64,000 bases of DNA from Nocardioides sp. Iso805N (GTDB lineage: Bacteria > Actinomycetota > Actinomycetes > Propionibacteriales > Nocardioidaceae): positions 372,001 to 436,000 of the forward strand of contig NZ_KB822577.1 of assembly GCF_000364605.1 (NCBI RefSeq). Direction: 5' to 3'. A model generated the notes under the pieces. The model worked only from the letters and a program-made list of their open reading frames with translations. It was not told where the DNA came from and searched no databases. The position numbers and the translations under genes are program-made. Positions 2,312-34,982 of the stretch are shown in pieces. Numbering within the stretch: position 1 is the first letter of the stretch; the number at the start of each line of letters is the position of its first letter.

Positions 2312-3240
2312 TCACCCAACTCGCCTACCTGGGCATCGCGTCCCCCAAATCCGAGGAGTGGCGCGACTACGCGACCCGCCTGCTCGGTGCTGTCATCGCC
2401 GAGGACGGTCCCGACGGCGCCGTTCGGGTCAAGGTCGACGACGCCGGCTACCGCATCGCCATCCACCCGGCCGAGCAGGACGAGCTCCGCTACGCCGGCT
2501 GGGCCTGCCACAACGAGGTGGAGCTGCGCTCCTACGTCGCCGAGCTGCGCGGCAAGGGCCTGGAGATCCACGACGGCACCGAGGAGGAGCTCAAGGAGCG
2601 CCGGGTCGCGGAGCTCTACTGGTTCACCGACCCGTTCGGCAACCGGCACGAGCTGATCTGGGGCCAGTACTCCGACCCGAACTCCTTCTTCCCCGCTCGC
2701 CCGATGCGCGGCCGCTTCGTCACCGGCGACCTCGGTCTGGGCCACATCGTGCTGATCGTGCCGAACCTCGAGCAGGCCGACGACTTCTTCGCCAAGACGC
2801 TCGGATTCCGGCTCTCGGACAAGGTCAAGAGCGACATCTTCAACCTGCGCTTCTACCACTGCAACGGCCGCCACCACTCGCTCGCGGTCGCGGAGATCCC
2901 GGGCATGACCGGCATCAACCACCTGATGCTCGAGGTGGAGAACTTCGACGATCTCGGCACGGCGGTGGATCTGTTCAGCGAGGACCCGGAGCGGGAGATC
3001 CTGCTCTCCCTGGGGCGGCACACCAACGACCTGATGACGTCGATCTACGTCCAGACCCCGAGCTCGCTGCAGATCGAGTACGGCCACGGCGGCATCAGCG
3101 TCGACGACCTCGCCTGGGTCGCCGGCTACCACGACGTGCCCTCGATCTGGGGGCACCACCGCTCGCAGGCGTACCTCGACGGCCCGCCGGGAATCTTCCG
3201 CATGCTGGAGCCGGCCGATGGTGCGGAGGCGGGCCGGTGA
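2308..3240 (+). CDS. Type I extradiol ring-cleavage dioxygenase (BphC/HsaC family)
   Basis: The 310-residue two-domain vicinal-oxygen-chelate protein should cleave a catechol next to its hydroxyls (meta cleavage) using Fe(II). The C-terminal domain shows the metal triad: His146 (GLGH), His205 (INH) and Glu257 (QIEYG). His189-His190 in a RHHS motif is at the usual second-sphere position. The N-terminal domain is the degenerate structural copy. The GTG start overlaps the monooxygenase stop as GTGA, and the next hydrolase gene overlaps in the same way, so the three should be translated in step. It is the natural follow-on to hydroxylation by the upstream monooxygenase. Confidence 0.9.
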   Translation: MITQLAYLGIASPKSEEWRDYATRLLGAVIAEDGPDGAVRVKVDDAGYRIAIHPAEQDELRYAGWACHNEVELRSYVAELRGKGLEIHDGTEEELKERRVAELYWFTDPFGNRHELIWGQYSDPNSFFPARPMRGRFVTGDLGLGHIVLIVPNLEQADDFFAKTLGFRLSDKVKSDIFNLRFYHCNGRHHSLAVAEIPGMTGINHLMLEVENFDDLGTAVDLFSEDPEREILLSLGRHTNDLMTSIYVQTPSSLQIEYGHGGISVDDLAWVAGYHDVPSIWGHHRSQAYLDGPPGIFRMLEPADGAEAGR

Positions 3241-4106
3241 CGAGCACCACGATCGAGACCGCCAGCCGGATCCGCGAGGACGACATCGCGATCAGCGACG
3301 GCCGTCACCTGCGCGTCCTGCAAACCGGGGAGTACGGGCAGCCGGCCCTGCTCTTCCTGCACGGCTCCGGCCCCGGCGTCACCGCCGGCAGCAACTGGCG
3401 CGGCGTCCTGGACGCCCTTGGTGAGGGCTTCCACTGCATCGCCCCCGACATCCTCGGCTTCGGCGACTCCTCCTACCCCGACCCGCAGCCGCAGGGCTTC
3501 AAGGCCCAGGCCGAGGTCCGCATCGACGCGCTCTTCGCGCTCCTCGACACACTCCGCATCGAGAAGGTCATCCTGGTCGGCAACTCGATGGGCGGGATGT
3601 ACTCCCTGCGCATGACGCAGCTGCGCCCCGAACTCGTCGCCGGCCTGGCGCTGATGGGCTCCGGCGGCATGCCCGGCCTCGAGCCGACGCCGGGCCTGAT
3701 CAAGCTGGTCACCTACTTCGACGATCCGAGCGTCGAGGCGATGGCCGATCTTCTCATCCAGTTCGTGCACGACAAGCAGGCCTTCGGCGACAAGGTTGAG
3801 GAGGTCGCAGCCGAGCGGATGCCGATCGTGCAGCGGCCCTGGATCGAGGCCGGTCACCGCGCGATGTTCGCCCCCGAGATGCTGTCCTTCACCGCCGAGG
3901 ACCTGGCCCGGATGGACGTGCCGGCACTGGTCGTGCACGGTCGCCAGGACGCGATCGTCCCGATCGAGTCCAGCTACTACCTGGCGGAGCACCTGCCACA
4001 CGCCGACCTGTTCGTCATCAACGAGTGCGGCCACTGGACGCAGATCGAGCAGGCGGACAAGTTCGCCGCGCTGCTGCGCACGTTCGCCGAGGGAGGCCTG
4101 TCATGA
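3237..4106 (+). CDS. Meta-cleavage product C-C hydrolase (BphD/HsaD/MhpC-like)
   Basis: The 289-residue alpha/beta-hydrolase has HGSGPG (oxyanion-hole region, about 42-47), nucleophile elbow GNSMGG with Ser117, Asp238 in HGRQD and His266 in CGHW. This is the triad of hydrolases that split the vinylogous diketone made by extradiol dioxygenases into an acid and a 2-hydroxydienoate. It starts at a GTG that overlaps the dioxygenase stop by 4 bases and overlaps the second monooxygenase in the same manner. A second hydrolase two genes later suggests the operon attacks two ring-fission products or two related substrates. Confidence 0.9.
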   Translation: MTSTTIETASRIREDDIAISDGRHLRVLQTGEYGQPALLFLHGSGPGVTAGSNWRGVLDALGEGFHCIAPDILGFGDSSYPDPQPQGFKAQAEVRIDALFALLDTLRIEKVILVGNSMGGMYSLRMTQLRPELVAGLALMGSGGMPGLEPTPGLIKLVTYFDDPSVEAMADLLIQFVHDKQAFGDKVEEVAAERMPIVQRPWIEAGHRAMFAPEMLSFTAEDLARMDVPALVVHGRQDAIVPIESSYYLAEHLPHADLFVINECGHWTQIEQADKFAALLRTFAEGGLS

Positions 4107-5278
4107 GCCTGGTCGACAAGGTCAGGGCCGCCGGCCCGACGCTGGCCGCCAGCGACGCGGTCAGCTCCGCCCAGGGCCGACTCTCGCACGTGGCCCTCGC
4201 CGCCCTCACCGACTCCGGCATCCTGCGTGCCCTGCAGCCCGCCCGCTGGGGCGGGGGCGAGGTCGCCCTCGACGAGTACGCCGAGGCGATCATCGAGGTC
4301 GGCCGCCACTCGGCGTCGGCCGGCTGGGTCAGCTCCGTGGCGGGCGTCCACCCGTGGCAGATCGCGCTCTTCCCCGAGCAGACCCAGGAGGAGATCTGGG
4401 GCACGGACCCCGACCGCCGGATCGCCTCCTCGTACACGCCCACCGGAAAGATCGAGAAGGTCGCCGGCGGCTACCGGGTCTCCGGGCGATGGTCCTTCTC
4501 CTCCGGCATCGGGATCTCCAGCGGCGTCATCCTCGGCGGGATCGCCGGCACGCGCGAGATCGACGGCGTCGAGCACCCCGACTTCACCGCCGTCATCCTC
4601 GACGAGGGCGACTACCGCGTCGAGCAGACCTGGAGCGTCGCCGGCCTGCGCGGCAGCGGGTCCAACGACGTAGTCGTCGACGACGTGTTCGTGCCCGAGC
4701 ACCGCGGGCAGTCCCACCTCTTCTACACCCACGGCCTCGGCACACCGCTGCCCGGCCAGGAGAAGAACGACGGCCCCCTCTACCGCACCCCGTGGGCGGT
4801 CGTCTTCAACCTGATCATCGCGGCCGGCGCGGTCGGGGCGGTCACCGGGTTCGTCGACTCCTGGGTCGCCGAGACGCGCACGCGCCGTACGAACTACGGC
4901 GTGATGCTGCGCGAGGAGGGCCTGGTACAGAACCACCTGGCCGAGGCGCAGTGGCAGCTCGACGCGGCACGACTCAAGATCCTGCGGGCCGGGCGCGAGC
5001 TGATGGAGCACGCCGAGGCCGGGCGGATCCCGTCCCTGGAGGAGCGTGCCTGGTACCGCTGGGACGTCGCCAAGGCCGCCAACTCCGCCACCGACGCCGC
5101 TCATGCGCTGATGCGGGTGGCGTCCGGGCGCTCGGCGTTCCTCGACCACCCGCTGCAGGCCAAGTTCCAGGACGTGGTCGCCGCCAGCTCGCACGCGTTC
5201 CTCTACGACGACCCGCTCGCGCGGGCCTGGGGCGGTCGCCACCTCGGCGCCGAGAAACTCGTGGCGGTGCACCTGTGA
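4103..5278 (+). CDS. Second ACAD-fold flavin-dependent monooxygenase
   Basis: This 391-residue paralogue of the gene at 1136 keeps the same landmark blocks (HPW, WSFSSG, GSGSND in place of GTGSKD). Its ATG overlaps the preceding hydrolase stop (ATGA) and its stop overlaps the next hydrolase start (GTGA). Having two hydroxylases in one operon suggests two different phenolic intermediates, or alternative regiochemistry on one substrate (inference). The GTG-rich coupling means both are made in similar amounts. Confidence 0.85.
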   Translation: MSLVDKVRAAGPTLAASDAVSSAQGRLSHVALAALTDSGILRALQPARWGGGEVALDEYAEAIIEVGRHSASAGWVSSVAGVHPWQIALFPEQTQEEIWGTDPDRRIASSYTPTGKIEKVAGGYRVSGRWSFSSGIGISSGVILGGIAGTREIDGVEHPDFTAVILDEGDYRVEQTWSVAGLRGSGSNDVVVDDVFVPEHRGQSHLFYTHGLGTPLPGQEKNDGPLYRTPWAVVFNLIIAAGAVGAVTGFVDSWVAETRTRRTNYGVMLREEGLVQNHLAEAQWQLDAARLKILRAGRELMEHAEAGRIPSLEERAWYRWDVAKAANSATDAAHALMRVASGRSAFLDHPLQAKFQDVVAASSHAFLYDDPLARAWGGRHLGAEKLVAVHL

Positions 5279-6132
5279 GCCACATCCGGACCTCCGACGT
5301 CGCCGTCACCGTCGACGGCCTCGACCTCGATCTGCGCGTGTATGCCTCCGGCGACCCAGGCCTGGAGACCGTGTTGTTCCTGCACGGCTCCGGGCCGGGT
5401 GCCACCGGCCTGTCCAACTGGGAGCGGATCCTCGAGGACCTCGCCGGACGCTTCCATTGCATCGCCCCCGACATGGTCGGCTTCGGCGACTCCAGCCACC
5501 CGCTGGATCCGCCCCGCGGCATGGGCCCGTTCAATGAGCTGCGGGCGCGGGCCGTGCTGGCTCTGCTCGACGAGCTCGGCCTGGAGAAGGTGCACGTCGT
5601 GGGCAACTCGATGGGCGGCCAGCTCGCCCTGATCCTGGCGCTGGACCACCCCGAGCGGATCGACAAGGTGCTGCTGATGGGCAGCGGTGGCGCGCCCGAC
5701 ATGCCGGTGAGCCCGGGCCTGTCGCATCTGCGGGAGTTCTACGCCGACCCGTCGGCGGAGTCCCTGGAGGGGCTGCTCACCGAGTTCGTCCACGACCTCG
5801 AGCCGCTGCGCGGGACCATCGACCGGGTGGTCAAGGAGCGGATGGAGTACGTGACGCGCGAGGACGTGCGACGCTCGCACGAGGCCAGCTTCGACCCGCA
5901 CGGCGCGCGCCGCTTCTTCACCCGCGAGGAGCTCGCCACGCTGCCCCACCACGTTCTGTGCGTGCACGGCCGCGACGACCGCATCATCCCGGTGGCCGCG
6001 TCGAGGTATTTCGCCGAATCAATCCCGGGGGCGAACCTGTACGTGCTCGGCGGCTGCGGCCACTGGACGCAGATCGAGCACCCGCAAACCTTCGAGGCGC
6101 TGCTCGACGGCCTCATCGACGGACGTCTCTAG
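5275..6132 (+). CDS. Second C-C bond alpha/beta-hydrolase (MhpC-like)
   Basis: The 285-residue protein is closely related to the product of 3237-4106. It has HGSGPG at about 37-42, GNSMGG with Ser112, Asp235 in HGRDD and His263 in CGHW, so the full triad is present. GTG start overlaps the monooxygenase stop. A short 8-base gap separates it from the FAH gene, whose ribosome site AGGAG begins right at the stop codon. It is predicted to hydrolyse a ring-fission product. The partner dioxygenase for the second monooxygenase is not in this operon, so both hydrolases may share the one dioxygenase. Confidence 0.87.
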   Translation: MSHIRTSDVAVTVDGLDLDLRVYASGDPGLETVLFLHGSGPGATGLSNWERILEDLAGRFHCIAPDMVGFGDSSHPLDPPRGMGPFNELRARAVLALLDELGLEKVHVVGNSMGGQLALILALDHPERIDKVLLMGSGGAPDMPVSPGLSHLREFYADPSAESLEGLLTEFVHDLEPLRGTIDRVVKERMEYVTREDVRRSHEASFDPHGARRFFTREELATLPHHVLCVHGRDDRIIPVAASRYFAESIPGANLYVLGGCGHWTQIEHPQTFEALLDGLIDGRL

Positions 6133-9182: not shown

Positions 9183-10712
9183 CTAGGAAGCGGCGGCGGC
9201 CGTGGCGTAGACGGCGTCGAGGATCGTGTCGGGATCGGTGGAGCGGATCTCCGTGAGGTGATCGGGGCCGTCGTAGACCAGGACCCGGTCGCAGGCGGCG
9301 GCGAGGTCGGAGGCCTCGACGCTGACGAGGAGGACCGCGACGCCGGAGGCGGCAGCACGCTGGACCGCGTTGAGGATGTCGGAGCGGGCGCCGACGTCGA
9401 CGGCCTGGGTCGGCTCGTGCAGGATCATGAAGCGGGGCCCGACAGACATCCACTTGGCGAGCAGCACCTTCTGCTGGTTGCCGCCGGAGAGCTCCTGGAT
9501 CAGGCGCATCGGAGCGTTCGGGCGGATGCCGAGGGTCGCGATCGCATCGTCGGTCTGCGTCGCCTGCCAGCCCCGTCCCGCCCACCACGGTCGCCCGTGC
9601 CGCGTCAGCGTCGGCAGGCTGATGTTGTCGCGGATGCTCAGGCTCATGGCCAACCCGTCGCGGTCGCGCCGCTCGGGGACGAGTACGACGCCGGCGCGGA
9701 TGCAGGCGGCGACGCTCGCGCGAGCGAGGGACAGCGCGGTGGAGTCGATGGTCAGCTCGCCGGACGCAGGTGTGGCGCCGGAGAGCAGGTAGGGCAGCTG
9801 TTCGAAGCCGCTGCCGGGCAGCCCGGTGAGGCCGACGATCTCGCCCGCCCCGATGGCGATGTCGAGGCTGGCCGCGCCCGGGCCGGACAGGCCCGTGATC
9901 GTCACGCCGGGTGCGTAGTGGGACTCGCCGGCCGGGCGGGTGTCGACGTCGTCGACGTCGCGACCGAGCATCAGCTTCGCGACGGACTGCTCGCTCTGCT
10001 CCGCCGTCGCGAGGCCGGCACCCACCACGCGGCCATCGCGCAGGACCGTGACGCGGTCGGTCTGGGTGAGGACCTCGTCGAGGCTGTGGCTCACCAGCAG
10101 CATCGACGTACCGGTGGAGCGGATCCGGCGGAGCATCTCGTGGAACTGCGAGAGCTCCTGCCGGCCCAAGGAGCGCGTCGACTCGTCGAGGATGACGAGG
10201 CCGCCGCCGGGGACGAGGTCGCGCATCGCTCGCGCGATGGCGACTCCCGCCCGGTGTGAGGCGGAGAGGTTACCGACCAGTGCCGTCGGCTCGATGTCGA
10301 GCTGGAGCTCGCCGAGGACGCGAGCGGCGACCTCACGCTGGCGCCGCCAGTCGACGCGTCGCAGGAAGCGGGTGCGTTCGTACCCGCCGACCCCGATGTT
10401 CTCGGCCACGCTCAGGTGGTCGAGGAGGCCGAAGTCCTGGTGGACGACGGCGATGCCGGCGCGGTGGGCGGCTGCCCACTCGACCGGCAGGCTCAGGTGC
10501 TCCCCGTCCACGGCGACCGAGCCGCCGCTGCCGGGGGTGTGGTAGCCGGTGAGGACCTTGACGAGGGTGGACTTGCCCGAACCGTTCTGCCCCACGAGCG
10601 CGTGAAGCTCTCCCGGCTGCACCACGAGCTCCGCCTGGTGCAGGACACAGGTGGGACCGAAGGTCTTGGAGATGTTCGAGACCGCGAGTCGCGGTGCAGC
10701 CGGGTTCGTCAC
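9183..10712 (-). CDS. ABC importer ATPase with two nucleotide domains, RbsA-like
   Basis: The 509-residue protein has two fused ATPase domains. Domain 1 has Walker A GQNGSGKST (41-49), a weak signature LSASHRAGVAIARA and Walker B ending LDESTRSL. Domain 2 lacks a true Walker A (GLTGLPGSGFEQL), has a classic signature LSGGNQQKV and a Walker B reading LHEPTQAVDVGAR, where His replaces the usual Asp. A non-canonical second site is normal in the RbsA family, but the His is notable and is shared with the second importer here. GTG start overlaps the binding-protein stop by 4 bases. Confidence 0.88.
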   Translation of the reverse strand: MTNPAAPRLAVSNISKTFGPTCVLHQAELVVQPGELHALVGQNGSGKSTLVKVLTGYHTPGSGGSVAVDGEHLSLPVEWAAAHRAGIAVVHQDFGLLDHLSVAENIGVGGYERTRFLRRVDWRRQREVAARVLGELQLDIEPTALVGNLSASHRAGVAIARAMRDLVPGGGLVILDESTRSLGRQELSQFHEMLRRIRSTGTSMLLVSHSLDEVLTQTDRVTVLRDGRVVGAGLATAEQSEQSVAKLMLGRDVDDVDTRPAGESHYAPGVTITGLSGPGAASLDIAIGAGEIVGLTGLPGSGFEQLPYLLSGATPASGELTIDSTALSLARASVAACIRAGVVLVPERRDRDGLAMSLSIRDNISLPTLTRHGRPWWAGRGWQATQTDDAIATLGIRPNAPMRLIQELSGGNQQKVLLAKWMSVGPRFMILHEPTQAVDVGARSDILNAVQRAAASGVAVLLVSVEASDLAAACDRVLVYDGPDHLTEIRSTDPDTILDAVYATAAAAS

Positions 10713-13520: not shown

Positions 13521-13537
13521 CGGGAGGCCGTGCCATG

Positions 13538-13563
13538 CTCTCTGTAGTGATCGTTACAGAGAG
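13538..13563. promoter_or_regulatory. TetR-type operator before the flavin reductase
   Basis: Inverted repeat CTCTCTGTA ... TACAGAGAG (9-base arms) around GTGATCGT; the longest and most symmetric copy of this operator. It ends 10 bases before the reductase ATG, so a bound repressor would block transcription. Confidence 0.75.
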
Positions 13564-13573
13564 TGAGTTTCCC

Positions 13574-14755
13574 ATGTCCTTCGATCCGACCCATTTCCGG
13601 CAGGTGCTGGGGCAGTACCCGACCGGCGTCGTCGTCGTCACCGCCCTGGATGCTGAGGGCGCTGCGCTCGGCATGACCGTCGGCTCGTTCACCTCCGTCT
13701 CGCTCGACCCGCCTCTCGTGGCCTTCCTCCCCGACCAGGGCTCGCGTTCCTGGCGGGCACTGCGTGAGTCCGGTCACCGGTTCTGCATCAACGTGCTCGA
13801 CGCCAGCCAGGAGGACGTCTGTCGAGCGGTCGCGGTCCGCAAGCAGGACAAGTTCGCCGACATCGCGTGGCGTCCAGCGCCGTCGGGGCTGCCGGTCATC
13901 GAAGGCGCCGTCGCGTGGATGGACTGCGTCACCGAGCAGGTGCACGAGGCGGGCGACCACCACATCGTCGTTGGGCGGGTAAACGACCTCCAGCTCGGCG
14001 AGGGCACCCAGCCGTTGCTCTTCTTCCGTGGTGGCTACGGCTCGTTCACCCCGCTCTCGCTGGCGGCAGGGGGCTCCGATCTGCTCGACCACCTGCGCCG
14101 CATCGACCTTGTGCGCGACCAGATCGAGTCGCTGGCGGCTCGATTCGACACCGAGGTCACCGCGATCGTCAGGGTGCGCGACGAGCTGGTGCTGGCCGCG
14201 GCCGTCGGGCGTACCGAATTGGCTGTCGCTCCCACCCGGGTCGGTCAACGACTGCCGTTCCTGCCTCCGCTCGGCAGCTGCTTCGCCGCCTGGGGCGACG
14301 CCGCCCTGCAGCGTGCCTGGACCGACGCCGTCGCTGGTCAGGTCGGGGAGGAGTTCGCCGAGTCCGTGCGTTGTACGCCTGAGCTTGTGCGCCGCCGCGG
14401 GTTCGCCATCGCGGTCGGCCATCAACTCGGTGAGCACCTCGAGGCGATCACCATCCGGGTCAACGAGGGTGATCCACAGCTGCCGGGCTCCGCCCTGCGG
14501 GAGGCGATGTGGCACGCCGCGGACGGCTACAACCCGGACGAGATCACCGGACCGGCCGAGCTGCGCCTGCTGACCGCACCGGTCTTCGACGCCGCGGGCG
14601 GCGTTGCCTTCACGTTGACGCTGTGGGGCGCACCCGGGCTCCTCGAGCCCGAGGAGATCGCCGAGCGCGTCGAGGCGCTCCGGGCGACCACCAGCCAGGC
14701 GAGTGCCTCGCTCGCGCGCAGCACGGCCGGCTGTCCGCAGTCCGCTGCCGGCTGA
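13574..14755 (+). CDS. Flavin reductase fused to an IclR-type effector-binding-like domain (copy 1)
   Basis: 393 residues. Residues 5-160 are a flavin reductase of the HpaC/HsaB type (YPTGVVVVTA, GMTVGSFTSVSLDPPL, CINVLDASQ, GDHHIVVGRV), which supplies reduced flavin to the ACAD-fold monooxygenases. Residues about 173-385 resemble the ligand-binding part of IclR regulators: RLPFLPPLGSCFAAW near 226-240 and LLTAPVFDAAGG near the end. No winged helix is present, so DNA binding is unlikely. I infer that the added domain senses the aromatic substrate and gates flavin reduction, as the MarR-like tail of the Acinetobacter 4-hydroxyphenylacetate hydroxylase reductase does. Two homologous fusions lie at 24855 and 32860. 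Confidence 0.83.
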   Translation: MSFDPTHFRQVLGQYPTGVVVVTALDAEGAALGMTVGSFTSVSLDPPLVAFLPDQGSRSWRALRESGHRFCINVLDASQEDVCRAVAVRKQDKFADIAWRPAPSGLPVIEGAVAWMDCVTEQVHEAGDHHIVVGRVNDLQLGEGTQPLLFFRGGYGSFTPLSLAAGGSDLLDHLRRIDLVRDQIESLAARFDTEVTAIVRVRDELVLAAAVGRTELAVAPTRVGQRLPFLPPLGSCFAAWGDAALQRAWTDAVAGQVGEEFAESVRCTPELVRRRGFAIAVGHQLGEHLEAITIRVNEGDPQLPGSALREAMWHAADGYNPDEITGPAELRLLTAPVFDAAGGVAFTLTLWGAPGLLEPEEIAERVEALRATTSQASASLARSTAGCPQSAAG

Positions 14756-14767
14756 CCTAGCGTTTCG

Positions 14768-15397
14768 TCACGTCGAGGTACGCCGACGCGCGACGAGGCT
14801 GCTCATCCCGGTTGCGGCGGCACGGACGGCGTCGACGTGGAGCTCCCGGCGGAAGCGTGCGGCCGGGCCTGTGACGCTGATGGCTGCGACCGCAGCACTC
14901 CCGGTGGCATCGAGCACCGGCGCGGCCACGCAGAGCAGGCCGGGTGTCGACTCCTGGCGCTCGAAGGCGACGCCCTTCTCGAGGACCGCCTCGAGCTGAC
15001 GCCGCAGCAGGCCGGGGGCGATGACGGTGTGGGGCGTACGGCGTTCGAGTGGTCCGGTGAGGATCTGCTGCTGGAGCTCCGCACCGCCGTGCGCGAGCAG
15101 GACCTTGCCGATGGCGGTGCAGTGCAGCGGCATCCGTCCGCCCGGGCGAGAAGGGCTCGAGGCCTGTCGACGGCCGCCGATCTTGGCGACGTAGACCACC
15201 TCGCCGCCCTCGGCGACGCCCAGGTGCACCGTCTCGTGCGAGCGCTCGTGCAGGTCCCGGAGGAAGGGCATCGCCAGCTCGAGCAGGGTGCGCCGATGCG
15301 CAGCTGCAGCTCGAGCAGCGGCCTGGTGGCTCGTTGCGGGCTCCGCATCGATATCGCCCTGATGGCACAGCAGGACGGAGAAGCGACGCCGCGCCAT
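14768..15397 (-). pseudogene. IclR-type regulator lacking its DNA-binding domain
   Basis: The 209-residue frame matches only the effector half of IclR proteins: LAMPFLRDLHERSHETVHL near residue 42, MPLHCTAIGKVLL near 88-100 and VAAPVLDATGSAAVAAISV near 160. The winged helix-turn-helix of about 80 residues that should precede it is absent in all frames; upstream sequence is unrelated and leads into a recombinase remnant. It is most simply a gene truncated by an insertion or deletion event. It could still make a stand-alone effector domain, but no ribosome site is evident. Confidence 0.65.
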
Positions 15398-15674: not shown

Positions 15675-16600
15675 TCACCAGTGCCCGCGCGCGGCGAGTT
15701 GAGAGAGCTTGTCAGTGAGGACGTCCATCCTCGACCCGGCAGCGCAGACGTACCGCAGCGCCGCGGCCGGGGTGGAGTCGCCGAGGAAGGCCTGGACCTC
15801 GGCGATGTTGGCACCGCTCTGCGCGAGGAGCGTTGCGCCGGTCGCGCGGAGGTCGTGGAAGTGGAGGTCGTCTCGGCCGGCGACCTGCCGGGCGGCGTAT
15901 CAGGTGCCGGGGCGCGCCCTGCGGATCAACTTCCCGCTGTTGTCGGTCTGCTGGGCTGCTCCGTTGAAGACGCTTGAATAGAGGAAGCCGCCCTGCGGCC
16001 CGGGGAAGAGCAGTCCGTCGCGTCCGGTGAAGTAGGTCCGCAGGTGACTTCTGGCCGCCGGCGCGACGGCGTCCGGGATGCGTTGGTGCCGGATACCGGC
16101 GGCCGACTTCGGTGCCTTCTCGTAGCGGGCACCACCCTGACCTGCGACGCCGACCGCGCGGCGCACTCGGATCACCTTCCGGTCGAGGTCGATGTCGGAG
16201 CGGCGCAGGGCGGTCAGCTCGCCGAAGCGCAGGCCGCACCGCAGCGCCATCAGGATCATTGCTTCCCATTCCGGGCGGATCGCGGCGCGGATGACCTCGA
16301 GCTCGGTGGCGGTGATGAGCTCGGTGCGCTGCCGGCTCGAGCCGCTGCCGGCGCCGCGGATCGCGAACGGATTGATCCGGCCGACGAGCGGTCCGTGGGC
16401 ACCCGTCGCCTCGGTCATGATCGAGTGCGCCAGCGAGTAGCACTCCCGCTGGTCTTCCCCTTGTTCAGAAGATCGTCGTGCCAGTTGTTCACCATGCCTG
16501 GGGTGATCTCGTCGAGGCGCAGCTCGCCGAACGTCGGGAGGATGTGCAGCCGCAGGTAGGAGCGGTACATGCGTAGCGTCGACTGCGCGAGCGCCCGCGA
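15675..16600 (-). pseudogene. Tyrosine recombinase (phage/ICE-type integrase), decayed
   Basis: Reading right to left: a SAM-like core-binding segment starts near 16600 (MYRSYLRLHILPTFGELRLD at about 16570-16511) and reaches LLNKGK. The frame then shifts by one base near 16470-16490 to YSLAHSIM, and the catalytic domain follows (ITATELEVI, CGLRFGELTALRRSDID). An in-frame TGA at 15900-15902 interrupts it, after which HFHDLRATGATLLAQ, LGDSTPAAALRY and a final RGHW complete the domain. Catalytic Arg, HxxR and Tyr are all still recognisable. With one frameshift, one nonsense codon and no N-terminal arm it cannot make the full enzyme. It marks an old integration event. Confidence 0.8.
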
Positions 16601-16845
16601 TCCTCCAGCTGCTCGAGCACCGGCTGAGCCAGCTGGAGAACGGCGCCGAGCCGGGCACCGGCGACCCTACGGTCGGCGGGGCCGACGCGGGCAGCGCCCC
16701 CGCCCCGGAAGCGGCGTCGCCGCAGACCGAGGGCCCGCCGCAGAACCCGCCGTCGCAGGGCGTCCCCCCAATCCGGCTCAGCCGCGGAAGTGAGCCGGCA
16801 GGCAGCACTGCTGCAGGTGCTCGCCCCGACCGGCGCCCGGTCCGC
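16601..16845. other. Stretch without a convincing gene
   Basis: Both strands have open frames, but they are Pro/Gly/Arg-rich and lack recognisable motifs or ribosome sites. It may be the remainder of the integrated element or of the recombinase N-terminus. Confidence 0.4.
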
Positions 16846-17673
16846 TCAGGGCAGGAAGTCGCCGATTAGCGCCTCGAAACGGGCAGCGCGTTCGTACGGC
16901 ACCCACAAGCCGGTCCTGCCGAAGATGTGCACCTCGACATCCGGGATGCGCTGGAGCAGGAAGAGCGCGTTGTCGTAGCCCTGGACGCGGTTGTCACGGC
17001 CCCAGACCACCAGGGTCGGCGCGGTGATCTGGTGAAGCCGGGTCCACAGCTGCTCCGGGCTGCCGACGTCCTGCGGGCGCGCGAGGAGGCTGGCCTGGTA
17101 ACGGTCCTCGACCAGCTCGTCGGTGACGAGCTCCTGGTCGTGCAGCATGAGCTCGAGGTAGCTGACCATCTTCTCGCGGGAGGGCCCGCGGCCGCCGTAG
17201 TAGGAGCGGATCGCCTTCTGGCCCTCACTCGGCGTCGGCGTGAACAGCGGCAGCCCGCCCGCCGAGCTCACCAGCACCAGCCGGTCCACGACCTCGGGAT
17301 GGTCGAGTGCCATCGCCATGGCTGCGGCGCCGCCCGTCGCCAGGCCGACGACATGCGCCGAGCTCGCCCCGAGCTCCCGGATGAGTGCGGCGAAGACGCG
17401 GGCGTAGAACGCGTAGCGACCGCCCTCGGGCCCGTCGAGCTCCTGGCTCGGCAGCTCGGACTGGCCGTACCCCGGCAGGTCGACGATGACGGTGCGGAAC
17501 CGCTTGGCGAAGGCGGCCATGTTCTGGCCGAAGTTCCCCCAGCCGTAGGCGCCGGGCGCGCCGCCGTGGATCAACAGCAGCAGCGGTCCTGCGCCGGCCT
17601 CGTGCAGGTGGAGGCGTACGCCGTCAGCCACGACGTGCCGGGACGTTGATTCAGGAGTGAGCGGCTCGGTCAT
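16846..17673 (-). CDS. Alpha/beta-hydrolase of the C-C hydrolase family with all triad residues replaced
   Basis: The 275-residue protein aligns over its whole length with the meta-cleavage hydrolases of this window: HGGAPGAYGWGNF at 36-48, the strand before the elbow, WGRDN at 224-228 and GRTGLW at 252-257. The nucleophile position in GLATGG is Ala112 instead of Ser, the acid position is Asn228 where relatives have Asp, and the base position is Leu256 where relatives have His. The frame is otherwise intact and tightly coupled (ATGA) to the CMD gene upstream, so it is probably expressed. It may be a non-hydrolytic enzyme, a binding protein, or an early pseudogene. Confidence 0.75.
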   Translation of the reverse strand: MTEPLTPESTSRHVVADGVRLHLHEAGAGPLLLLIHGGAPGAYGWGNFGQNMAAFAKRFRTVIVDLPGYGQSELPSQELDGPEGGRYAFYARVFAALIRELGASSAHVVGLATGGAAAMAMALDHPEVVDRLVLVSSAGGLPLFTPTPSEGQKAIRSYYGGRGPSREKMVSYLELMLHDQELVTDELVEDRYQASLLARPQDVGSPEQLWTRLHQITAPTLVVWGRDNRVQGYDNALFLLQRIPDVEVHIFGRTGLWVPYERAARFEALIGDFLP

Positions 17674-18233
17674 GACAGGGGCCTCACGTCGAAGAGCGTC
17701 AGCTGGGTGGCCAGCGTGGAGTAGTAGCCGACGAGCGTGCTGAGCTCGAAGATCGCGGCGTCGCCGAGGCCCTCCTGGAGCTGCTCGAACTCGTCGTCGT
17801 CGGGCAGGGTGCCGGCCAGGATGGCGCGGGCGAGCTCGAGCGCGCCGGCCGCCTCCGGGTACGCCGCGGGCGTCTCGCCGGCCTCGATCGCCACGAACGC
17901 CTCCTCGTCGACCCCGAGCCGGGCGGCGACCCTCTGGTGCGCCGCCCGCTCGTAGACGGAGTCGTGGTGGGCGGCGACCGCCAGGATCACCAGCTCGCGG
18001 GTGACGTCGGGCAACAGCGAGGAGTAGCGCAGCGCGGCGCCGAGCCGCTGCAGGGGAGCGCCGACCGCCGGGCTGTAGAGCATCGCGTTGAACGGTCCGG
18101 TGAGCGCACCGGAGGCGTCCACCGGCCCCGCGGGACGCTCGGCGGAGGCGCGCGGACCGCCGCAGATCTCGTCGTACAGCGCTCGCTGCTCGGCGGTGAG
18201 GGCGGCGGGCGCCAGGAGCGGTCCCCTAGCCAA
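17670..18233 (-). CDS. Carboxymuconolactone decarboxylase (CMD)-like protein
   Basis: The 187-residue all-helical protein has the CMD core: TRELVILAVAAHHDSVYERAAHQRVA near residues 78-103, with the family's Glu and His but no CxxC, so it is not an AhpD peroxidase. Relatives in catabolic clusters are often of unknown activity. A TTG at 18233 is the only plausible start that spans the conserved N-terminal segment; it overlaps the end of the FAH gene by 8 bases. A second family member is at 37259-37822, also next to an FAH gene. Confidence 0.75.
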   Translation of the reverse strand: MARGPLLAPAALTAEQRALYDEICGGPRASAERPAGPVDASGALTGPFNAMLYSPAVGAPLQRLGAALRYSSLLPDVTRELVILAVAAHHDSVYERAAHQRVAARLGVDEEAFVAIEAGETPAAYPEAAGALELARAILAGTLPDDDEFEQLQEGLGDAAIFELSTLVGYYSTLATQLTLFDVRPLS

Positions 18234-19047
18234 CGACCGTGTTCCTCAGCTCGCCCACCCCGTCCACCCGGGTGACGACCGTCTGGCCGGGGCGCAGGAA
18301 GACCTTCGGGTCGCGGGCGTTCCCGACGCCTGAGGGGGTGCCGGTGAGGATCACGTCGCCGGGCTCGAGCCGGGTGAACGTCGAGATGTCGGTGATCATG
18401 GTGGGCACGTCGAAGATGAACTGCGCCGTGTTGCCCTTCTGCATCACCACCCCGTCGACCTCGCAGGTCACGTCCAGCCCGGTTGCGCCGGGCGGCAGCT
18501 CGTCGTCGGTGACCAGGACGGGCCCGAGGGGGGTGAGCCCGTCCCACGCCTTGCCGGCGTGCCACTGCTTGGTGCGGTTCTGCCAGTCGCGGACGCTGAA
18601 GTCGTTGCTGACGGTGTAGCCCGCGACGTGGTCGAGCGCGTCCTCACGGGGGACGGCGCGGCCGGCCTTGCCGATGACGAAGGCCAGCTCCACCTCCCAG
18701 TCGAGCTGCTCGCTCACGGTGGGCATCGGGATATCCGCGTACGGCGCGCACAGGGAGGCGCTGTGCTTGGCGAAGAGCACCGGGGCCTCGGGCAGCTCGT
18801 GGCCACCCTCGGCGACGTGCTCGGCGTAGTTGCGCCCCATGCAGATGATCTTCGGGGGGTCGGGCACGACCGGACGCAACTCGGCGGCGTCCACCGGCAC
18901 CACATCCCCGTCGGCCGCGGCGAGGCTGCGCCAGTCGTCCTGTTCCAGCAGCTCGCGCACGTCGGACTGGGGGAGGAGGACGAGCCGGTCGCCCTCGAGG
19001 CGGGCGGCGTGCGGGACCCCGTCGACGTGCACCGAGGCCAGACGCAT
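18226..19047 (-). CDS. FAH-family enzyme (2-hydroxydienoate or acylpyruvate hydrolase type)
   Basis: 273 residues. Landmarks are GRNYAEH near 77, DWEVELAFVIGK near 125, VSNDFSVRDWQ near 155 and TGTPSGVGNARD near 238, typical of FAHD1/YcgM-like members. The WEVE acidic residues bind the metal. ATG overlaps the upstream VOC gene stop (ATGA). In this operon it follows an extradiol dioxygenase and monooxygenase and should act on the cleaved chain. It belongs to a different FAH branch from 6141 and 36355 (no extra N-terminal ANHDGR domain). Confidence 0.83.
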   Translation of the reverse strand: MRLASVHVDGVPHAARLEGDRLVLLPQSDVRELLEQDDWRSLAAADGDVVPVDAAELRPVVPDPPKIICMGRNYAEHVAEGGHELPEAPVLFAKHSASLCAPYADIPMPTVSEQLDWEVELAFVIGKAGRAVPREDALDHVAGYTVSNDFSVRDWQNRTKQWHAGKAWDGLTPLGPVLVTDDELPPGATGLDVTCEVDGVVMQKGNTAQFIFDVPTMITDISTFTRLEPGDVILTGTPSGVGNARDPKVFLRPGQTVVTRVDGVGELRNTVVG

Positions 19048-19559
19048 CAGCCCCGCGTCCTTCCACCGGGCGTGCCCGACGTGGCCGGGCCACCGTCGGT
19101 GAGCAGACGCTCGGCCTGGGCGATGACCTCGTCGGCGCTCTGGTCGAGGTCGAGGTCCTTGCGGAACGGCTGGCGCACGTCGAGCGGCACCCGGACGTAG
19201 ACCTCGACGCGGTTGCCCTCGGGGTCCCAGAAGTAGATCCCGTAGGCGTTGCCGTGGGTGACCTCCTGCTGGACCGGTACGCCGGCGGCCTTGAACTTGT
19301 TGTGGAACTCCAGCAGCGTCTCGATGTCGTCGACGCGGAAGGAGATCTGCTGGATCAGCTTCACGTCGTCGGGCGCCTGACGGCCGCGGGCGATCACGAA
19401 CTCGTGGTGCTCGACCTCGGGACGGGCGCTCATGAAGACGATGCCGTGGTCGAGGTCCTCGTCGGTGATGGTCAGGCCGAGCATGGTGGAGTAGAACTTC
19501 CGCATGTTCTCCAGGTCGTTGACCCAGACGCCGGTGTGACCGAGCTCTGCGATGGGCAT
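19047..19559 (-). CDS. Single-domain VOC-family protein (glyoxalase/dioxygenase superfamily)
   Basis: The 170-residue protein has one vicinal-oxygen-chelate module: GHTGVWVNDLENMRKFY at the start, HHEFV, QISFRV and DPEGNRVEVY near 130. Beyond it lies a conserved tail of about 40 residues (VRQPFRKDLDLDQSADEVIAQAERL). A paralogue with the same tail is at 63258-63836. Candidate metal ligands are His8, His68 or 69, and Glu in VEVY. It could be a small ring-cleavage dioxygenase, an epimerase or an isomerase of a pathway intermediate. ATG 19559 has AAAGGAGC upstream. Confidence 0.72.
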   Translation of the reverse strand: MPIAELGHTGVWVNDLENMRKFYSTMLGLTITDEDLDHGIVFMSARPEVEHHEFVIARGRQAPDDVKLIQQISFRVDDIETLLEFHNKFKAAGVPVQQEVTHGNAYGIYFWDPEGNRVEVYVRVPLDVRQPFRKDLDLDQSADEVIAQAERLLTDGGPATSGTPGGRTRG

Positions 19560-19578: not shown

Positions 19579-20793
19579 TCAGAACTTGACGGTGGGCAGA
19601 CCCTCGTGGCCGAAGAACAGCAGTCCCCAGGACTGCCAGACCGGCTCGGCGAGGTTGTGGATGTGGTGCAGCGCGGCCTGGCTGTCGCGCCAGCGGCGCT
19701 CGAGCCCGGCGGAGGCGTAGACACCGGCGCCTCCGCTGATGCGGAACACGGCGTCGGCCGCGTCGGCCGCACGCTGCGCTGCCGCGGCCTGGTTGCGCCG
19801 GAGCTCCGCACGCAGCGACATCGGCACGAGCTCGCCGCGCAGGCAGTAGGCATAGGCCCGGTCCATGTCGTGCAGGATCTGCACGACCGCCGAGTCGACG
19901 TCGGCGGCGGCGCGGCCGAGGGTGGCCAGCTGGAACGGGTCCTTGGAGGCCTTGCCGTGACGGGCCTGGCGGTCGCGGGTGATCTCGATGAAAGTGTCGA
20001 CGACGCCCTTGGCGATGCCGACGGTAGCGGCGGTGACCGCACCGGCGAACGTGATGTTGCGCGGCAGGTAGAAGACCGGTGCGTCACCGCGTCCGGCCGC
20101 GGGTGCGGCGGAGCCCTCGGTCACCGCCTCGATGCGGATCACCCGATGGGCCGGCACGAAGGCGTCCCTGATGACGAGGTCCTTCGAGCCGGTGCCCTTG
20201 AGGCCGACGACGTCCCACGAGTCCGCGACGATCTCGTAGTCGGAGCGGGGCACGGCGACGTGACAGACCGTCCGGTCGCGGAGCTCGCCGTCCGCGTCGG
20301 CGATCCAGGCGCCGATGGTGACCCACTGGCACAGGTCGGTGCCGGACGAGTAACCCCAGCGGCCGTTGAAGATGTAGCCGCCCTCGGTCGGGACGAGCAC
20401 CCCGCCGGGCGCGTAAGGCGAGGCGATCCACGTCTCGGGCCCGAGCGGCGAGGCATCCCAGATCTCCTCCTGCAGCCTGCGGTCGGCCAGCGCCACCTCG
20501 TGCGGGTGGACGCCGACGACGCCGGCGACCCAGCCGACCGAGGAGTTCAGGGCGGCGAGCTCGACGCAGCCCTCCAGGAACTCGGTGGGGTGCCCCTCGA
20601 GGCCGCCGAAGTCCGCCGGATGGAGCAGCTTGACGACGCCGGTGGAACGGAGCGCATCCTCGCTGACCGGGGTGAGGTGGCCGAGCTCGTCACACGCCGG
20701 CGCGTCCTTCTTGAGGACGCCGGCGACGGCGGCGATGCGATCGAGGACGCCGGTGTGGCGCGGCGCGCCGGGCTGCATCTTCGTCATCGTCAC
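19579..20793 (-). CDS. ACAD-fold flavin-dependent monooxygenase (HsaA-like), third copy
   Basis: The 404-residue protein shares GWVAGVVGVHPHE, WGYSSGTD and GTGSKDLVIRDAFVP with the other hydroxylases here and is closest to the one at 30579. The GTG at 20793 overlaps the dioxygenase stop as GTGA; an ATG at 20787 has better spacing to AAGGG and may be used instead. The last residues GHEGLPTVKF match the C-terminus type of its relative (LFGLDVPPGV). It should hydroxylate a phenol for the coupled dioxygenase. Reduced flavin probably comes from the reductase at 24855 or 32860. Confidence 0.84.
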   Translation of the reverse strand: MTMTKMQPGAPRHTGVLDRIAAVAGVLKKDAPACDELGHLTPVSEDALRSTGVVKLLHPADFGGLEGHPTEFLEGCVELAALNSSVGWVAGVVGVHPHEVALADRRLQEEIWDASPLGPETWIASPYAPGGVLVPTEGGYIFNGRWGYSSGTDLCQWVTIGAWIADADGELRDRTVCHVAVPRSDYEIVADSWDVVGLKGTGSKDLVIRDAFVPAHRVIRIEAVTEGSAAPAAGRGDAPVFYLPRNITFAGAVTAATVGIAKGVVDTFIEITRDRQARHGKASKDPFQLATLGRAAADVDSAVVQILHDMDRAYAYCLRGELVPMSLRAELRRNQAAAAQRAADAADAVFRISGGAGVYASAGLERRWRDSQAALHHIHNLAEPVWQSWGLLFFGHEGLPTVKF

Positions 20794-21665
20794 AGCCCTT
20801 CGCGATCGTGGCCCCAGTAGTGCGCGGACGGGTACTGGGTCGGGACCCAGGTGGCGTCATCGATGAAGATGCCGCCGGTGCCGTACTCGATCTGGGTCCG
20901 TGAGGGCGTCTCGACGTAGAACGAGATCATCTTGTCGTTGGTGTGCTTGCCCAGCGTCGCCTTCTCCTTGGCGCCGTGGGCGTACATGTTGTCGATCGCG
21001 CGACCGACACCGTCGATGTCGGTGGTCTCCAACATGATGTGGCCGATGCCCTGCAGGCGCTTGCGGTCGTCGTCCATGACCGGCACGAAGGCGAAGGAGT
21101 GGTGCCGCGGGTTGCAGTGGTAGAACGTCGCCGGGCCGATGTAGTCGCTGAGCGCGAAGCCGAGCACGTCGCGGTAGAGCTCGTTGTACTTCTCCACGTC
21201 ACCGACCAGCTGGAAGACGTGGCCGAGGCCGAGCTCCCGGTTGGCGACGAAGGTGGTGCCGACCGGCGAGACGAAGGGCGTGAGCGCCTGTTCGAGGCCG
21301 TACATCAGCTCGAGGTTGATGCCCTCGGGGTCGGTGAACGTGGCGATGTCGACGACGTTGCGGGCGTTCGCCAGCGCCGAGCCCACGCCGTGGTGGGTGA
21401 CGGTGTAGCCGTACTTCTCGACGCGGGAGATGACCTCGGTGAGCTCGTCGGCGCCCTTGACGGCCCAGCCGAGGGTGTGCACGCCCTCGGGGGCGCCCTC
21501 CTCGACCTGGAAACGGTAGCCGAACTCGTCCATCCGGAACCGGAGCGAGGTCTCGGCGCGCTCGACCAGCTCCATGCCGAGCACGTGGGGGGCGAACGTG
21601 CGCCACGCGTTGAGATCGGTGCACCCGAGGATCACGTAGCCGAGGCTGCGGACGGTCGCGCTCAT
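20790..21665 (-). CDS. Type I extradiol dioxygenase (BphC/HsaC family), second copy
   Basis: The 291-residue two-domain protein has metal ligands His149 (GLGH), His209 (GIGH) and Glu260 (QIEYG), plus the RHHS pair near 188. It is homologous to 2308-3240 but clearly diverged, so a different catechol is likely. ATG 21665 has AGGAG 6 bases ahead. It is the first gene of a six-gene leftward operon (dioxygenase, monooxygenase, VOC, FAH, CMD, inactive-looking hydrolase). An IclR-type site lies 74 bases upstream. Confidence 0.9.
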   Translation of the reverse strand: MSATVRSLGYVILGCTDLNAWRTFAPHVLGMELVERAETSLRFRMDEFGYRFQVEEGAPEGVHTLGWAVKGADELTEVISRVEKYGYTVTHHGVGSALANARNVVDIATFTDPEGINLELMYGLEQALTPFVSPVGTTFVANRELGLGHVFQLVGDVEKYNELYRDVLGFALSDYIGPATFYHCNPRHHSFAFVPVMDDDRKRLQGIGHIMLETTDIDGVGRAIDNMYAHGAKEKATLGKHTNDKMISFYVETPSRTQIEYGTGGIFIDDATWVPTQYPSAHYWGHDREGL

Positions 21666-21761: not shown

Positions 21762-23312
21762 TCAGCGGTCGGCCAGGATCAGCTCGCTGGCCCTCTCGGC
21801 GATCGCGATCACGGTCAGATGCAGGTTGGCGCTGACCACCTTCGGGATGATCGAGGCGTCGACGACGCGCAGGCCGTCGAGTCCGAGGAGGCGGCAGCGC
21901 GGGTCGACCACGGCGGCCGGGTCGTCGGGCTGGCCCATCCGGGCGGTCGAGCAGGCGTGGACGACGTCCTTGACCTGGGCCATGATCTCGGCGCGGGTGC
22001 GCGGACCCCAGGGGTCGCCGACCATGAGCTTGCGGAACTCCGGGCGGCCCAGGAAGTCCCAGGCCCGGTCGAGGCCCTCCTTCATCCGGGCGTAGTCGGT
22101 CGGGTCGGAGAGCAGGTCGTGCTCCAGGACCGGGTCGACGCTCGGGTCGGCCGAGGGCAGGGTGAGCCGGCCCCGGGTCCAGGCCTCGTTGAGCTGGACC
22201 GCCAGTCCGGAGTTCTGGTTGCCGAACCAGTAGTTGTGGTTCGTGCCGAGGATGACCACGTCGTTGGGCTGCGTGCCGGGCAGGGCGGACGAGAACCGGA
22301 TCGTGGTGTTGGTCGCGCGCAGGTCCTCGGCATAGAAGCGGTCCTCGGTCGGGACGAAGTCGATCGCGCAGATCGCGTGGTCCTGCATGCCCTCACCCAC
22401 GGGCAGGTCGGCGACGGTGGTGACCCCGAGCCGGGCGAGTTCGGCGCTCGGGCCGATGCCGCTGCGCAGCAGGATCGGCGGGGTGTGCACCGCACCGGCC
22501 GAGAGGATGACCTCCCCGCCGGGAGCGGCGTCCACGGTCGTGCCGTCGACCAGGCGTACGCCGACGGCTCGCCCGTCCCTGATCACCACCAAGTCGACCT
22601 GGCTGTTGCCCCGGATGGTGAGGTTGGCACGGCCGCGAGCGGGGTCCAGGTAGCCGATGTTCGTCGAGACCCGCAAGCCGTCGGCGGTGTTGTTGCTCGG
22701 ATAGCGCGACAGGCCGGTGCTACCCGGCTCGTTGTAGTCGTCGTGCTCCGCGCAGCCGTCCTGCTTGCCGCACTCGTACAGCGCGCGGTCGACGTCGCCC
22801 CAGCCCTGCTCCGGCTCGCGCCAGATCGGGATGGGCCCGTCACCCCCGTGCCACGGCTTGTCGCCGTACGTGAGGTCCGACTCGAGCTTGCACAGCGACG
22901 GCAGGAAGTCGTCCCAGCCCCACCCGGTGGCGCCCATCGCGGCCCAGCCGTCGATGTCGGCCGGCTCCGGGCGGACGGCGACCATGCCGTTGACCGTCGA
23001 GCTGCCACCGGCACCCTTGCCGCGGATGTAGGGCAGGGCCTGACGGTCGGGCGTACGACGAGCGGTCACGCCCGTCCAGTAGTACTCCGGCAGGCGCATC
23101 GCGCCCATGGTCTGCTCGAGCCCGGTCTCCAGGACCCGGCGCCGGAAGAACTCGGGCGTCTGGGAGCCGGGGTACTCCAGGCCCGCCTCGAGCAGCAGCA
23201 CCCGCACGGCCGGGTCGGCGCTGAGCCGGTTGGCCAGGACGGAGCCGCCGGCACCGGCGCCGACGATGATGTAGTCGAAGTCGTGCAGCGCGTCGAAGTC
23301 CTGCGTGCTCAT
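21762..23312 (-). CDS. GMC-family FAD-dependent alcohol oxidase/dehydrogenase
   Basis: 516 residues. The N-terminus has the FAD-binding IIVGAGAGGSVLA (about 14-26), then the GMC signature GKGAGGSSTVNGM near 103-115. The C-terminal active-site region reads VVHACSTARMG, where the His is retained, and ends with VVDASIIP ... ANLHLT in place of the usual GNTNAPT. It should oxidise a primary or benzylic alcohol, feeding the aldehyde dehydrogenase whose stop overlaps its ATG by one base. The pair suggests side-chain alcohol to acid conversion. Confidence 0.85.
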   Translation of the reverse strand: MSTQDFDALHDFDYIIVGAGAGGSVLANRLSADPAVRVLLLEAGLEYPGSQTPEFFRRRVLETGLEQTMGAMRLPEYYWTGVTARRTPDRQALPYIRGKGAGGSSTVNGMVAVRPEPADIDGWAAMGATGWGWDDFLPSLCKLESDLTYGDKPWHGGDGPIPIWREPEQGWGDVDRALYECGKQDGCAEHDDYNEPGSTGLSRYPSNNTADGLRVSTNIGYLDPARGRANLTIRGNSQVDLVVIRDGRAVGVRLVDGTTVDAAPGGEVILSAGAVHTPPILLRSGIGPSAELARLGVTTVADLPVGEGMQDHAICAIDFVPTEDRFYAEDLRATNTTIRFSSALPGTQPNDVVILGTNHNYWFGNQNSGLAVQLNEAWTRGRLTLPSADPSVDPVLEHDLLSDPTDYARMKEGLDRAWDFLGRPEFRKLMVGDPWGPRTRAEIMAQVKDVVHACSTARMGQPDDPAAVVDPRCRLLGLDGLRVVDASIIPKVVSANLHLTVIAIAERASELILADR

Positions 23313-31911: not shown

Positions 31912-32748
31912 TCAACGGTCGGCGGTGCGCGCGGTGTCGAGGTCCCGGACGTGCGCGGCGTAGAGGGCCGAGATCTCGTTGGCGGCCCCGTGGACCCTCG
32001 CCGCGAGGACGGCCGGGTCGAACCGGCCGGTGGAGCCCGACGTGGAGATCGCCGCGATCGCCCGGCCACGCCAGATGATCGGCGCCGCGACGCACGTCAG
32101 CCCGAGCGCGGACTCCTCGCGGTCGAAGGCCACGCCGTGCTGGCGCACCTGAGCGAGCTCCTGGACGAAGAGTCCCGGGGCGGCGATGGAGTGCCGTGTG
32201 CGCCGTTGGAGGCCCTGCTGCAGGATCTTCTCGATCACCGCCTTGTGCCCGAACGGCAGCATCGCCTTACCGAGCGCCGAGCAGGATGCCGGGATCCGGC
32301 CGCCGACGACGGTCGGGACCCGCACCGCGGTGTTGCCCTGGATCTTGTCGACGTACATGACGTCCGTGTCGTCGAGCACGGCCAGGTGCACCACGGTCCG
32401 GCTGCTCGCGAAGAGGTCGGAGAGGAACGGCGCAGCGATGCTGCGCAGGTCACCTGGCGTGCACATCGACACGCAGTTGCCGAGCTCGAACACGTGTTGA
32501 TCGAGGCGGTAGTCGGTGCCGCGCCGGTTAAGGAAGCCGCTGGCGGCGAGCTGGTTGAGCAGTCGGAACGCGGTCGACTTCGGCAACCCGGTCGCGCGCG
32601 CCAGATCGCTCACGCCAGCTACCGGGCCGATGCGGCGGAACGCGTCGAGAAGGGTGAGCGCCTTCGTCACCGAGGTGGCCGCGCTGTCGCGACCCTCCCG
32701 CGGCATAGACACCTCGTGCTGATCCATCGACATCTCGACTGCCGTCAC
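31912..32748 (-). CDS. IclR-family transcriptional regulator
   Basis: The 278-residue protein has an N-terminal winged helix-turn-helix (SVTKALTLLDAF, then LARATGLPKSTAFRLLNQL near 55-73) and a C-terminal effector domain (IPASCSALGKAML, LTCVAAPIIWRGRAIAAIS). GTG 32748 has AAGGAG 6 bases ahead, so the open frame that continues upstream is not used. Its own promoter carries site D and a CRP-like site. It is the best candidate for the protein that binds the eight TGCCG-N5-TGGAA-like sites, probably with an aromatic inducer. Confidence 0.88.
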   Translation of the reverse strand: MTAVEMSMDQHEVSMPREGRDSAATSVTKALTLLDAFRRIGPVAGVSDLARATGLPKSTAFRLLNQLAASGFLNRRGTDYRLDQHVFELGNCVSMCTPGDLRSIAAPFLSDLFASSRTVVHLAVLDDTDVMYVDKIQGNTAVRVPTVVGGRIPASCSALGKAMLPFGHKAVIEKILQQGLQRRTRHSIAAPGLFVQELAQVRQHGVAFDREESALGLTCVAAPIIWRGRAIAAISTSGSTGRFDPAVLAARVHGAANEISALYAAHVRDLDTARTADR

Positions 32749-32789
32749 GCCGTGCTCCTTCGTGGACGCCGTCCAACTTTCCACGTCAG

Positions 32790-34918: not shown

Positions 34919-34966
34919 GAAGACGTCCTCTCGTCGGTGCTGGAAGTGGGTGTCCTCCCACCTTGC

Positions 34967-34982
34967 TGTGGCGAGGGACACA
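34967..34982. promoter_or_regulatory. CRP/GlxR-like site
   Basis: TGTGGCGAGGGACACA, symmetric in its TGTG/CACA ends. It is 49 bases upstream of the hydrolase gene. Confidence 0.4.

Follow-up and report, generated by a model that had tools for sequence, protein, structure and literature searches.

Is an alpha/beta-hydrolase-fold protein that has exchanged all three residues of its catalytic triad a gene in decay, or is it retained with a new role, and if so which? The question is raised by psHyd, our name for the protein in the first row of Table 1, encoded in a window of 64,000 nucleotides (the whole stretch of DNA analysed here) in an operon of aromatic-catabolism genes, next to a remnant of a phage-type integrase gene.

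The first-pass annotation had described a clean frame, coupled to its neighbour by a 4-base overlap and adjoining a decayed element, whose product keeps the fold and the oxyanion-hole loop but carries Ala112, Asn228 and Leu256 at the triad positions conserved in four complete hydrolases of the window. All of this holds up. The frame is open throughout, from an ATG start to a TGA stop, and its translation contains the motifs GLATGG, GRDN and TGLW. The gene for a carboxymuconolactone-decarboxylase-family (CMD) protein ends at 17670 and the psHyd ATG starts at 17673, giving an ATGA junction. The decayed element is a weak integrase match (15900-16808, minus strand; Pfam E 2.4e-5, below the gathering score) that lies between psHyd and a truncated gene for an IclR-type regulator (14768-15397, minus strand, about 209 aa). 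Only the effector domain of this regulator is matched, the DNA-binding part being missing on the side of the integrase remnant; a full-length IclR paralogue is found at 31912-32784.

Pfam places psHyd in Abhydrolase_1, and its closest curated relatives in NCBIfam are HsaD and BphD, with scores far below the equivalog cut-offs of both (237.8 against 400 bits for HsaD and 164.2 against 462.15 bits for BphD). The nearest PDB entries, by sequence and by fold, are likewise HsaD and BphD, with MhpC next. The AlphaFold2 model (pLDDT 92, pTM 0.92) matches BphD in structure comparison with a Z score of 39.4 and 1.4 A over 265 residues. As modelled, psHyd has the alpha/beta-hydrolase core with lid of the meta-cleavage-product (MCP) hydrolases, closest to BphD/HsaD.

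Table 1. Position and conservation of psHyd, its triad and pocket residues and its neighbouring genes; fractions refer to the 16 full-length members of the triad-less clade.
Feature	Position	Strand	Conservation or evidence
psHyd, triad-less HsaD/BphD-type alpha/beta-hydrolase-fold protein, 275 aa	16846..17673	-	Frame, profile, PDB and model evidence
Ala112, codon GCG, nucleophile-Ser position (BphD S112)	17338..17340	-	Ala 15/16, Gly 1/16
Asn228, codon AAC, catalytic-Asp position (BphD D237)	16990..16992	-	Asn 16/16
Leu256, codon TTG, catalytic-His position (BphD H265)	16906..16908	-	Leu 16/16
Thr113, nucleophile elbow, after Ala112	17335..17337	-	Thr 15/16, Ser in 1; hydrophobic (F/M/L/Y/W) in canonical relatives
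Arg191, equivalent of BphD Arg190 (substrate carboxylate ligand)	17101..17103	-	16/16; also kept by canonical relatives
Trp257, equivalent of BphD Trp266	16903..16905	-	14/16
Glu207, BphD Trp216 position (pocket)	17053..17055	-	Glu 15/16, Asp in 1; pLDDT about 69
Tyr172, BphD Met171 position (pocket)	17158..17160	-	Tyr 15/16
Carboxymuconolactone-decarboxylase-family protein (CMD, PF02627)	17670..18233	-	Pfam; upstream of psHyd, 4-base overlap
Fumarylacetoacetate-hydrolase-family protein (FAH, PF01557)	18226..19047	-	Pfam; counterpart at the matching place in G448, 68% identity
VOC1, one-domain VOC protein	19047..19559	-	Pfam; counterpart at the matching place in G448, 73% identity
HsaA-type flavin-dependent phenol monooxygenase	19579..20793	-	NCBIfam; most frequent neighbour of clade members
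Two-domain extradiol ring-cleavage dioxygenase (BphC/HsaC type), 2-His-1-Glu motifs present	20790..21665	-	NCBIfam
HsaB-type flavin reductase with C-terminal extension, divergent, beyond the integrase remnant	13535..14755	+	NCBIfam, Pfam

Positions in psHyd were assigned by residue-for-residue alignment to annotated BphD. The three replacements fall exactly at S112, D237 and H265 of that enzyme, and the four other full-length hydrolases of the window (3237-4106, 5275-6132, 34085-34981 and 58467-59327) all carry Ser, Asp and His. The nucleophilic Ser that canonical MCP hydrolases hold in GNSxGG, their catalytic Asp and the catalytic His of their CGHW motif are each absent from psHyd and from its closest homologues, as is the active-site residue N111 of BphD, which is Leu111 in psHyd and Leu or Met in the clade described below. 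Judged from its residues, psHyd has lost the hydrolytic apparatus, and C-C hydrolysis by the mechanism of the family should be impossible for it. The Arg that binds the dienoate carboxylate (BphD R190) is found as Arg191 and is present in every alignment row read; Asn51 and Gly42 of BphD are also retained, as Asn47 and Gly38.

Searches covering about 1,600 whole genomes, one scan of genome contigs and a plasmid collection gave us 16 full-length members of the triad-less clade, the window's included, and one partial member (L003). Within the window's genus, two close genomes encode copies at 74-76% identity, others lie near 65% and one at 58%. Further members come from other families of the same order, from Terrabacter, an uncultured actinobacterium and a Caballeronia plasmid, and from Phenylobacterium, where the copies belong to metagenome-assembled genomes. 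The clade is rare, since a phylum-wide sample of 396 genomes yielded no further members at E <= 1e-60, and 395 genomes of the class gave, besides the window, triad-bearing relatives only, among all matches but the weakest, in G536. We note a second, divergent psHyd copy in one genome (L046, from G196, 9642-10478), which reads GLGSGG, with Gly at the nucleophile position and Ser next to it, and in which Ser replaces Trp257.

The first-pass annotation had taken the loss of three residues on a preserved scaffold as a sign of a new role and as an argument against random decay. It had proposed to align close homologues and to estimate dN/dS, with retention of Ser-Asp-His in the homologues marking psHyd as an early pseudogene. 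The alignment gave the opposite result: nucleophile, acid and base are missing from all 16 sequences, that is from the window's protein and 15 others. Since these sequences average 60% pairwise identity (minimum 45%) and share only 65 invariant columns out of 260, the common replacements are not due to chance. A maximum-likelihood tree built from 50 sequences sets all triad-less rows apart on one side of a single branch (support 100/100, 200/200 bootstrap trees); one other row, L047_adj, the hydrolase adjoining the Caballeronia member, is highly divergent and of unsure placement. The boundary of the clade is sharp, the triad being absent at 54% identity or more to the window protein and present in all relatives at 46% or less. 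All three residues have therefore been lost in one old clade.

Selection on the clade is purifying. For the window's gene, dN/dS (Nei-Gojobori) is about 0.2-0.5, or 0.22-0.46 in five pairs with homologues (0.22 and 0.31 to the two nearest, 0.46 to Phenylobacterium), and other pairs within the clade give 0.12-0.38, all of these being rough values owing to the bias at synonymous sites in genes this rich in GC. psHyd is maintained and not decaying, a conclusion that rests on the intact frames and on the replacements shared across phyla and not on dN/dS alone. The proposal of a retained protein with a new role is thus supported by the single clade, by purifying selection and by a pocket more conserved than the rest, whereas the type of role, be it binding, scaffolding or non-hydrolytic chemistry, is a matter of inference.

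The pocket set consists of residues that we take to line the BphD active site, placed in psHyd by alignment, their geometry judged from the alignment only. In this set at most one sequence deviates in 13 of 19 columns, compared with 82 of 241 elsewhere (p = 0.0035); three of the 19 are clade-defining positions, and without them the count is 10 of 16, a weaker contrast in the same direction. The oxyanion loop (residues 36-49) is conserved in 13 of 14 columns and reads HGGA in the clade where relatives have HGGG. The clade is set apart from its relatives by Ala39 (Gly in canonical sequences), Gly46, Thr113, Ser136, Tyr172, Ser195, Asn228, Leu256 and Pro259, all typical of its members. Were psHyd a scaffold only, its pocket would be expected to drift freely; instead the pocket is among the best-kept parts, which indicates that it is itself under selection.

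We inspected the surroundings of the clade members, calling genes with a codon-usage script, naming them by BLAST to window or locus proteins and identifying most of them with Pfam or NCBIfam. An HsaA-type gene lies directly upstream of psHyd in 9 of the 16 loci (in G128 only a C-terminal fragment was called) and elsewhere in the operon in the window and in G448. BphC/HsaC-type dioxygenases with 2-His-1-Glu motifs and HsaB-type flavin reductases are the usual further neighbours. In G264, G196 and G370 an SsuABC-type importer leads the operon, and after it come flavin reductase, dioxygenase, HsaA, psHyd and intact hydrolase, to which G196 adds MhpD-MhpF-MhpE; the Caballeronia cluster likewise has psHyd and an alpha/beta hydrolase, then MhpDFE. 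In these operons ordinary C-C hydrolysis and the steps after it are already covered, so that psHyd is an extra component. The candidate for C-C cleavage varies between loci: it is either a directly downstream hydrolase, from one of three unrelated lineages, or an FAH-family enzyme, as in the window and G448. This variability makes psHyd look like a shared step before cleavage and fits that better than a fixed heteromer. In the Caballeronia plasmid cluster we also find an IS3 transposase gene (L047, 6733-8309) inserted between VOC genes.

The window as a whole (1-64000) is a dense aromatic-catabolism island with at least five HsaA-like monooxygenases, the four triad-bearing MCP hydrolases, MhpA/MhpB-like genes (55798-58457), two FAH+CMD gene pairs and genes for a sugar-type ABC importer. 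In VOC1 the position of the second metal-ligand His appears to be Gln, and the protein may not be an extradiol dioxygenase. The HsaB-like reductase is 406 aa long; Pfam matches its reductase domain only, and the extension of about 230 aa, which by eye resembles an IclR effector-type domain, may serve to sense a ligand, like that of the p-hydroxyphenylacetate hydroxylase reductase. A GMC oxidoreductase (21762-23312, minus strand) adjoins an aldehyde dehydrogenase and is closest to MftG of the mycofactocin system (331.9 against 387.45 bits, below the cut-off).

Taken from these sequence features, the reading that we tentatively favour is that psHyd is a neofunctionalised HsaD/BphD paralogue whose ligand is a ring-fission intermediate on its way to C-C hydrolysis; beyond binding it, psHyd would probably isomerise or rearrange it. 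The HsaA-type hydroxylase and the extradiol dioxygenase of the operon would make this intermediate, most likely the ligand of psHyd, and the dienoate would be held by the retained Arg191, Trp257, Asn47 and oxyanion loop. A non-hydrolytic step, probably a tautomerisation, an E/Z isomerisation or a cyclisation, would replace the Ser/His/Asp chemistry and would be carried by the new polar pocket residues Thr113, Tyr172, Glu207 and Asn228, after which a separate enzyme, either an intact hydrolase or an FAH-family protein, would cleave the C-C bond. Glu207 is a candidate for a new acid/base; its loop is where the model is least reliable, and a few canonical relatives have Glu or Asp in that column. 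The chemistry of canonical MCP hydrolases, ketonisation included, is generally assigned to the triad His, and the loss of this residue counts against an enzymatic role, as do the loss of Asn111, the low confidence of the Glu207 loop and the acidic residues of canonical relatives in the Glu207 column. Against the reading also stand three members that are not beside an HsaA gene (G153, G199 and Phenylobacterium). It is possible, and put forward with still more reserve, that psHyd is specifically an enzyme that converts ring-fission products, be it as tautomerase, isomerase or cyclase, and that it evolved once from an HsaD/BphD-like hydrolase by replacement of the whole triad and spread between actinobacteria and proteobacteria.

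A somewhat unlikely alternative is that psHyd, as a true pseudoenzyme, does no more than bind, acting as a carrier or buffer that captures an unstable and reactive ring-fission product (or catechol) and passes it to the next enzyme. Retention of the carboxylate-binding Arg and of the oxyanion loop, and the overlap of the gene with those of pathway partners, are in keeping with this, and psHyd would be nature's equivalent of the BphD variants S112A and S112A/H265A and of HsaD S114A, for some of which there are structures with bound substrate (PDB entry titles). A mere binder, however, has no need of strictly conserved new polar residues such as Tyr172, Glu207, Thr113 and Asn228.

It is distinctly less probable that psHyd is a non-catalytic subunit that tunes an intact MCP hydrolase within a heteromer. 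Prozyme, a dead paralogue that tunes trypanosome AdoMetDC in a heteromer, offers a precedent in which, as here, a catalytically dead paralogue shares the cell with active family members (PMC5201418). MCP hydrolases are oligomers (the MhpC homotetramer is among the PDB matches), and an intact hydrolase lies directly downstream, with a 4-base overlap by gene calls, in 5 of the 16 loci (G362, G264, G196, G370 and Caballeronia). Unlike prozyme, psHyd has no constant active partner: the downstream hydrolases fall in unrelated branches, which weakens the case for an obligate partner of any one of them, and in the window operon, G448, G254, Terrabacter and Phenylobacterium the immediate neighbours of psHyd include no hydrolase. 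The conserved part of the protein, moreover, is its pocket.

That psHyd senses a pathway metabolite, in the manner of GID1, a receptor-type alpha/beta-hydrolase fold (PMC10873640), is improbable: a pocket retained without catalytic residues and the IclR genes common nearby would suit a receptor, but the gene sits between enzyme genes and has no regulator as a constant partner. A cofactor-free oxygenase in the manner of HOD/QDO is very improbable. The catalytic dyad of these enzymes is His-Asp. HOD and QDO resemble the psHyd clade in fold, in their place in aromatic catabolism and in their non-hydrolytic chemistry (proposed for psHyd), and they act on aromatic rings without cofactor, using the oxyanion hole, but their dyad keeps the triad His as general base (PMC9040561), whereas psHyd has neither dyad residue, with Leu256 and Asn228 in their places. 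An early pseudogene is barely credible and we reject it: the adjoining integrase fragment and the IclR gene without its DNA-binding part would be in line with decay, but the intact frame, dN/dS well below 1, the conserved pocket, the tree and replacements at the three identical positions in 15 other members from other surroundings all speak against it.

How, then, should psHyd be classified? It shares with HsaD, BphD and MhpC (EC 3.7.1.-) the fold, the lid, the oxyanion loop HGG-x-PGA, the equivalents of Arg190 and Trp266 and a place in operons that also encode HsaA-like and extradiol enzymes; it differs from them in the replaced triad, in Leu/Met for Asn111, in its clade-specific pocket residues and in its profile scores. 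Since it descends from MCP hydrolases and lacks the catalytic features that define them, psHyd should not be filed as one. A documented parallel to our favoured reading, a neofunctionalised paralogue, is that of the plant carboxylesterase-fold cyclases (catharanthine, tabersonine and coronaridine synthases), in which the triad His was lost, the oxyanion HGGG became HGAG and cyclase activity was gained, some sequences also being without Ser (PMC10873640). Loss of the triad His and a Gly-to-Ala change in the oxyanion loop are common to both, non-hydrolytic chemistry being demonstrated in the plants and inferred for psHyd. The plant enzymes belong to the class I CXE family, with Asp kept and Ser mostly kept, and may serve as an analogy only, the nearest solved structures to psHyd being bacterial MCP hydrolases. 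Triad-less alpha/beta-hydrolase folds are a known kind. In the open-licence literature searched, no description turned up of any MCP hydrolase or HsaD homologue without the triad, or of a conserved clade of this sort inside the MCP-hydrolase family and in catabolic operons, an absence that is weak evidence.

If our reading is correct, meta-cleavage pathways would hold an unrecognised step or accessory protein, hidden by the annotation 'alpha/beta hydrolase', the automatic label that the Caballeronia copy carries. The clade would then be a bacterial case in which a complete triad has been swapped out while the pocket remains under selection, and its clean boundary, between 54% and 46% identity, would open the triad switch to mutagenesis.
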